Origin: Halorussus halobius
GTDB lineage: Archaea > Halobacteriota > Halobacteria > Halobacteriales > Haladaptataceae
Assembly: GCF_004765805.1 (NCBI RefSeq)
Contig: NZ_SBIU01000003.1
Span: 682,001-746,000 of the forward strand
Length of the DNA stretch: 64,000 bases
Reading direction: 5' to 3'
Below the pieces are notes generated by a model. That model was not told the DNA's origin and made no database searches. It worked only from the letters and a program-made list of their open reading frames with translations. Every line of letters begins with the position of its first letter. Within the stretch, counting starts at the first letter, position 1. Below, in pieces: positions 11,582-12,628 of this stretch. The position numbers were made by a program, and so were the translations under genes.

Positions 11582-11636
11582 GGACGGGGATTCGATGTCG
11601 GGTTCGGTATGCGTTTCGGTGGTCCGTGAAAAAATA

Positions 11637-11697
11637 CCATTGGCCGAAATACCAATAGACAAGTTTATGCCATTGGTCTGAGTACCAATAGAAGAGG
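11637..11697 (+). promoter_or_regulatory. Paired palindromic operators around the TATA box of the TumE operon
   Basis: Two 18-bp palindromes of form ATTGG-N8-CCAAT lie at 11639-11656 and 11672-11689. The second is perfect in its outer 7 bp (ATTGGTC-TGAG-TACCAAT). Each is part of a 25-27 bp near-direct repeat with 33-bp spacing. The TATA-like AAGTTTATG (about 11661-11669) lies between them. The ATG at 11698 is about 30 bp below the TATA, so the mRNA is leaderless and the second site covers the start point. A dimeric repressor, probably the regulator encoded two genes on, would block both TBP/TFB and polymerase. Confidence 0.75.
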
Positions 11698-12036
11698 ATG
11701 GCCTCACGGACTGCCGACGACCTCGATGGCCTTAGCGAGGTGGAGAAGTACCCCGATGGAACCGTCGTCCGCGTGTTCTGCATGCGGACGGACCGAGACG
11801 CATACCCGTGTGGGTGGGCGTACAAGCTCCACTACGGCGCGACGGAACCCGACCTCGAACGGACGCTCGAAGACGGTACGATTCGCCGGTACGACAACTC
11901 ACACGAGGACACGAAGGGCCACGAACTCCACGTCGCACCCGACCCCGAACCGGAGGGTATCGAGTTTCCTGGGATGGTCGAGCTCTGGCGACGATTCTGG
12001 AGCGAGATACCGAAGTCCGAGTTCGAGGTCGTGTGA
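11698..12036 (+). CDS. TumE-family toxin (DUF6516-like)
   Basis: 112 residues. The central strands CGWAYKLHYGA, GTIRRYDNSHED and the following HELHV match the TumE fold, in which RYDN and a histidine are conserved. First gene of a two-gene operon whose second gene encodes the DNA-binding partner, 22 bp downstream. Expected to inhibit growth when free and to be neutralised by its partner. ATG start fixed by the leaderless promoter. Activity is inferred from family and operon. Confidence 0.75.
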   Translation: MASRTADDLDGLSEVEKYPDGTVVRVFCMRTDRDAYPCGWAYKLHYGATEPDLERTLEDGTIRRYDNSHEDTKGHELHVAPDPEPEGIEFPGMVELWRRFWSEIPKSEFEVV

Positions 12037-12058
12037 GGCCATCCCAACGGTGATACCC

Positions 12059-12508
12059 ATGAACGATTCCACGCCGCCGCTACACCCGATGGAACGCGAA
12101 CGGCTCCGGACCGAATCGACGCTCGTCGTGACGGTGGAGTCGCCCGAAGAGTTCCGCGACGAAGTCTCCGAGGGCATCGCGGCACTCGAACGGGGGGAGT
12201 CCACGGACTCCCCACCGACGCTCTCGTTTACCAGCTACGACGACCTGATGGCGACGCTTACGCCGCGTGTGCTCGACCTCGTCGAGGCCATCCGCCGCGA
12301 GGAGCCGTCCAGCATCAACGAAACCGCACGAACCGTCGACCGAGATGTCAAGAACGTCCACGAAGAACTCAGCCAGCTCGCCCGGTTGGGCGTCATCTTC
12401 TTCGAGGAGGAGGGCCGGAGCAAGCGCCCGGTCGTCTGGTTCGACGAACTCGTGATCAATCTCCCGTTGGACGGGGGAACGAGCGACACTGCGACCGTAG
12501 CCCCCTGA
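12059..12508 (+). CDS. HTH DNA-binding antitoxin (HVO_A0114-like, TumA-type)
   Basis: 149 residues. N-terminal part (about 1-65) contains TLVVTVESPEEFRDEV and probably contacts the toxin. LSFTSYDDLMATLTPRVLDL links to a winged helix (about 75-130) with INETARTVDRDVKNVHEEL as the helix-turn-helix and a wing KRPVVWFDEL. This is the standard haloarchaeal partner of TumE toxins. A GGTGA motif lies 6-10 bp before ATG, so translation is probably leadered. Likely represses the operon through the 18-bp palindromes upstream. Confidence 0.8.
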   Translation: MNDSTPPLHPMERERLRTESTLVVTVESPEEFRDEVSEGIAALERGESTDSPPTLSFTSYDDLMATLTPRVLDLVEAIRREEPSSINETARTVDRDVKNVHEELSQLARLGVIFFEEEGRSKRPVVWFDELVINLPLDGGTSDTATVAP

Positions 12509-12628
12509 CGGAGATGGGAGCAATCGGACGCCGAAAATCACAGCGTTGACGAGAATAGCGCAGCGAGCGACTCGTATGGCCGACCCCGAACTCCTCGCTC
12601 ACGGTGAAACCGTTCGCGTCTTCGAGGC

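Follow-up and report, generated by a model that had tools for sequence, protein, structure and literature searches.

A putative toxin-antitoxin (TA) operon of Halorussus halobius is preceded by two copies of an 18-bp palindrome, ATTGG-N8-CCAAT, which raises the question of what the pair is for and which protein recognises it. The reading favoured here, on the evidence of sequence comparison, is that the palindromes serve as operators for a mobile and self-contained TumE TA cassette, each being bound by a dimer of the helix-turn-helix (HTH) protein encoded by the second gene, alone or together with TumE, with repression of the operon as the outcome. This reading is regarded as very probable, because more than 50 related operons have the twin pair upstream of these genes as well. 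The features concerned are listed below in coordinates of the window, i.e. the whole stretch of 64,000 nt that was analysed.

11624-12537, plus strand: acquired cassette holding the operators, the TumE gene and the HTH gene (approximate, placed by the breaks in homology with congeners)
11639-11656, no strand assigned: distal operator op1, ATTGG-N8-CCAAT, ATTGGCCGAAATACCAAT
11664-11669, plus strand: TATA element TTTATG
11672-11689, no strand assigned: proximal operator op2, ATTGG-N8-CCAAT, ATTGGTCTGAGTACCAAT
11698-12036, plus strand: TumE toxin gene (PF20126, Pfam E = 7.7e-12), probably leaderless
12049-12054, plus strand: Shine-Dalgarno-like (SD-like) GGTGAT, a few bases upstream of the HTH start codon
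12059-12508, plus strand: gene for an HVO_A0114-family winged-helix protein (PF25212, Pfam E = 2.1e-31), presumed antitoxin and autorepressor

Both products are members of the families named: TumE scores 45.5 bits against a curated cut-off of 23.4 (PF20126), and the HTH protein 108 bits against 27.6 (PF25212). The toxin gene is intact, and the family-invariant residues R64, Y65, N67, H69, H75, H78 and F100 are all present in its product. The HTH gene directly follows the toxin gene in 233 of 247 TumE loci, a set that was partly drawn via the HTH gene and is to that extent somewhat biased; such a two-gene operon, in which a toxin and a DNA-binding partner are kept as a pair, has the layout of a type II TA module. 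According to the portion of PMC10584680 available to us, the TumE-TumA superfamily (DUF6516) was defined in 2023, the TumE pairs tested experimentally are gammaproteobacterial only, with no archaeal member, and translation-inhibiting toxicity is known only for such gammaproteobacterial members. The window TumE is probably a toxin neutralised by its partner. The window operon shares with TumE-TumA the PF20126 toxin, the two-gene organisation and a predicted DNA-binding partner, and differs from it in two respects: its toxin gene comes first, whereas the toxin is mostly second in clusters 1, 2, 4 and 6, and its partner is an HVO_A0114 winged helix, whereas a RelB-like antitoxin is given for a cluster-1 partner (same portion of PMC10584680). 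As for operators, that portion describes none for the TumE family; in the open literature searched, no paper describing such TumE operators was found, HVO_A0114 was unmentioned, and DUF6516 was mentioned only by PMC10584680. At several other loci (L097, L136, L161, L173 and others), the TumE frames look interrupted and the HTH gene and operators are kept, as if the toxins had been lost earlier than the antitoxin and the control region.

The palindromes lie exactly where the first-pass annotation had placed them, with a measured distance of 33 bp from start to start, and they stand, as it had claimed, on either side of a TATA element; these two matches in the window compare with none in 100 dinucleotide shuffles. 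In the whole genome (3.93 Mb), the motif occurs three times, namely as the window pair and as one copy in an unrelated gene, within the reading frame of a cation-antiporter-/TrkA-like gene. This third copy was considered as a target in trans and rejected, as it falls in coding sequence.

The usual haloarchaeal distance between TATA element and start point is about 26 bp (PMC6523106). With the TATA element taken at about -26, transcription is predicted to start near 11690-11694, 4-8 nt upstream of the TumE ATG (11698); op2 would then span approximately -21 to -4 and the right half of op1 would lie near the BRE, so that occupancy of either site would hinder TFB/TBP or the polymerase. The sites had also been described as sitting over the start point: op2 does lie between the TATA element and the start, and it abuts the predicted start instead of covering it. 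Since this start falls 4-8 nt from the ATG, the TumE message would have little or no leader, and leaderless messages are the majority in haloarchaea. Concerning the second gene, an SD-like motif, usually GGTGAT, precedes it in 43 of 50 orthologues. In the mechanism proposed, a dimer of the HVO_A0114-family protein, alone or with TumE, would occupy each 18-bp palindrome, op1 being on or next to the BRE/TFB region and op2 in the interval from the TATA element to the start point; occupied operators would block assembly of the preinitiation complex and keep the operon repressed; and a drop in antitoxin would open the promoter, giving a single mRNA in which the toxin frame is almost leaderless and the antitoxin frame is preceded by the SD-like motif.

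The palindromes are conserved in homologous operons; their absence there, which the first-pass annotation had named as refuting its reading, is not what was found. Loci were taken from two sources, i.e. 60 loci with TumE relatives from public haloarchaeal genomes and further ones from 392 genomes sampled from the class. Among the 56 distinct orthologous promoters, a set chosen by an op2 match with at most one mismatch, from which only identical sequences were removed and in which some loci of the two sources may share species, op2 is present in 56/56 and op1 in 53, being unrecognisable in the other three. In the group with a 29-bp spacing (n = 50), the core columns reach an identity of 0.84 to 1.0, except for the last base of the left half of op1, the more degenerate half, which is often T and not G; the columns upstream of op1 are mostly near random. 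The TTAT core between the two sites is strongly conserved too, 3 bp upstream of op2 in the window and in the orthologues, and op2 ends 8 bp upstream of the ATG in most orthologues. Exact twins with a gap of 8-18 bp were found 20 times in the 392 haloarchaeal genomes, all 20 at TumE operons (one of these TumE genes being cut by a contig end), and a reversed-pattern control over the same genomes gave zero twins. The palindromes are operator-like elements kept with the TumE/HTH operon, as had been supposed, and their exact twins occur solely upstream of TumE. Conserved operators overlapping the operon's own promoter are the mark of an autoregulated TA promoter, and the best explanation of the locus is a promoter of this known kind. 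The sites would thereby predict the mode of control of a large haloarchaeal group of TumE modules and mark HVO_A0114 proteins as likely autorepressors.

Some loci show additional features around the sites. In Natrinema ejinorense (L084, also L131), three successive ATTGG-N8-CCAAT sites precede TumE, vs. the usual two. At L039, L040, L044 and similar loci, an upstream frame ending in ...ECDDCYCSPDQ-stop (or a close variant) enters op1, its stop codon overlapping the CCAATAG of op1, and the ATTGT variant of the left half at these loci may be due to this overlap.

Concerning the distance between the sites, the 33 bp of the window had been read as about three helical turns, and this does not hold as a rule. 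The spacing is 29 bp in 50 of 53 orthologues and 33 bp in three (the window, L160 and L088), the longer one being made of four extra bases between op1 and the TATA element, with fixed TATA-op2-ATG distances. Over all operator classes, the 97 high-scoring twins are spaced by 27-30 bp (83), 33 bp (5), 35-36 bp (7) or 24 bp (2). Because most orthologues have 29 bp and the overall range is 24-36 bp, three-turn phasing is not conserved; a helical-phase rule was rejected, and the near-integral number of turns proper to a phase-dependent cooperative pair is not conserved. Of the two sites, op2 appears to be the primary one, with op1 in an auxiliary role.

The variable spacing also bears on the first alternative, according to which the TumE-HTH complex is the sole or main binder and the toxin:antitoxin ratio toggles the twin sites by conditional cooperativity. 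Ratio-dependent control is common among type II modules (PMC6393540) and a TA complex could bridge two sites, but the spacing shows no sign of a rigid bridge, and the operon is toxin-first, conditional cooperativity being absent from HigBA of Proteus vulgaris, GraTA and MqsRA (PMC6393540); this alternative is thus held to be unlikely. For autorepression by the HTH partner, the nearest mechanistic parallel is GraTA of Pseudomonas putida, in which the HTH antitoxin represses its own promoter, as is predicted for the window protein; in GraTA the antitoxin does so alone, two GraA dimers binding cooperatively through the DNA of a 33-bp operator (PMC6393540). The GraA dimers, however, occupy opposite faces of one central palindrome at a bacterial promoter, whereas in the window two full palindromes bracket an archaeal TATA element, and the presumed antitoxin of the window operon is ArsR/MarR-like, unlike those of GraTA and HigBA-type modules. 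HigBA-type modules have the toxin gene first, as does the window operon; no HigBA with two operators was found in the open literature searched.

The AlphaFold model of the HTH partner (mean pLDDT 76.8, with block means of 88-95 over residues 61-110 and above 90 over residues 71-110) confidently predicts a winged helix, the recognition helix being residues 97-110. The nearest solved folds are those of ArsR/MarR-type repressors (PDB 6j05, MexR, SlyA), which have the predicted winged-helix fold in common with it; the likeness is weak overall (best E 2.8e-3, TM about 0.37 over the query), and the partner has an extra N-terminal region. Sequence-profile searches of solved structures with the HTH protein and TumE matched no PDB chain, and none was found in a viral-contig search for the HTH protein. 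Another PF25212 protein is encoded in the window genome (L285, G000 C9:31119-31331), with no TumE match nearby in the genome search.

Twin sites are not restricted to the ATTGG class. When the upstream regions of 220 distinct TumE loci were scanned de novo for palindrome pairs, 97 scored at least 18/20, vs. 1/220 in mononucleotide shuffles, and outside the ATTGG class twins were found in 58 of 147 TumE-HTH operons, vs. 0.9% of dinucleotide shuffles. The half-sites vary by subfamily, being ATTGG, GTTGG (N8 or N9), TATGG, GATGG or GWTGT, and an AT-rich element lies nearly always between the paired sites, across classes. The window genome itself has three TumE-HTH modules, one each of the ATTGG, TATGG and GATGG classes, the TATGG module with a single recognisable site and the GATGG module with a twin spaced by 29 bp; distinct half-sites per genome are not a general rule, because genome G377 has two ATTGG-class modules. 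The recognition helix starts with RDVKNVHEEL (minor substitutions) across the whole ATTGG class, and with RDYKQVHRNL for TATGG, RDVRQVHxNL for GWTGT and RDVSdVHsdL for GTTGG-N8. In a partial Mantel analysis controlled for overall identity, residue 97 is the top single column (partial r 0.44, confounded by descent), nine-residue windows elsewhere in the HTH protein and in TumE outscore the recognition-helix window, and in a thinned set operator similarity is not predicted by overall HTH identity. Since L181 and L183 pair KNVH-type helices with GTTGG-class sites, the first half-site base is not set by the recognition helix alone; TumE could contribute to operator binding. As a whole, the covariation between operator class and HTH subfamily is suggestive, and confounded by descent. 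An operator code shared by haloarchaeal HVO_A0114-family antitoxins, with paired N-W-T-G-K half-sites around the TATA element and bases 1, 2 and 5 varying by subfamily with recognition-helix residues 97-103, is plausible, if somewhat short of likely; it would give different TA modules in one cell separate operators. Half-sites specific to subfamilies make recognition specificity directly testable.

These helix and Mantel comparisons do not single out the HTH protein as the determinant, which leaves room for another haloarchaeal regulator, global or local, that would bind the palindromes, the HTH partner merely neutralising TumE. Such a regulator is improbable: the motif of the window genome is found at the TumE promoter and otherwise only once, within a coding region, which argues against a global regulon, and the site is co-inherited with the TA operon over many genera and plasmids and varies with the TA subfamily. 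The HTH protein remains the probable binder, and its binding would repress.

The mobility of the whole is apparent from the congeners, in which homology ends at about 11622 and is picked up again at about 12537-12573, which fixes the left border of the cassette to about 10 bp and the right border to some tens of bp. Congeners with both flanks alignable have 13-60 bp in place of the approximately 914 bp of the window; as judged from these alignments, the operators and both genes were inserted as one unit, with little else. Several genera have orthologues on plasmids; one of these plasmids is pNRC200 of the laboratory strain Halobacterium salinarum NRC-1, where the orthologue (VNG_RS10520) lies beside an ISH7A transposase gene. 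The operators are kept in both plasmid copies read, the pNRC200 orthologue being among the copies with the same sites, so that this archaeal example of a twin-operator TA promoter has its counterpart on that plasmid. Even though the inserted cassette starts near op1, it is most improbable that the inverted repeats are mobile-element ends or RNA hairpins, as both copies lie on one side of the cassette with none at the other end, their positions are fixed relative to the TATA element and the ATG, and both would stay untranscribed because they are upstream of the predicted start.

On the left flank, the neighbour is a divergent LD-carboxypeptidase-like gene, which all 17 of the congeners examined carry. 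Its promoter region (window 11582-11640, minus strand) abuts op1, and the insertion may therefore have put this gene under the same repressor.
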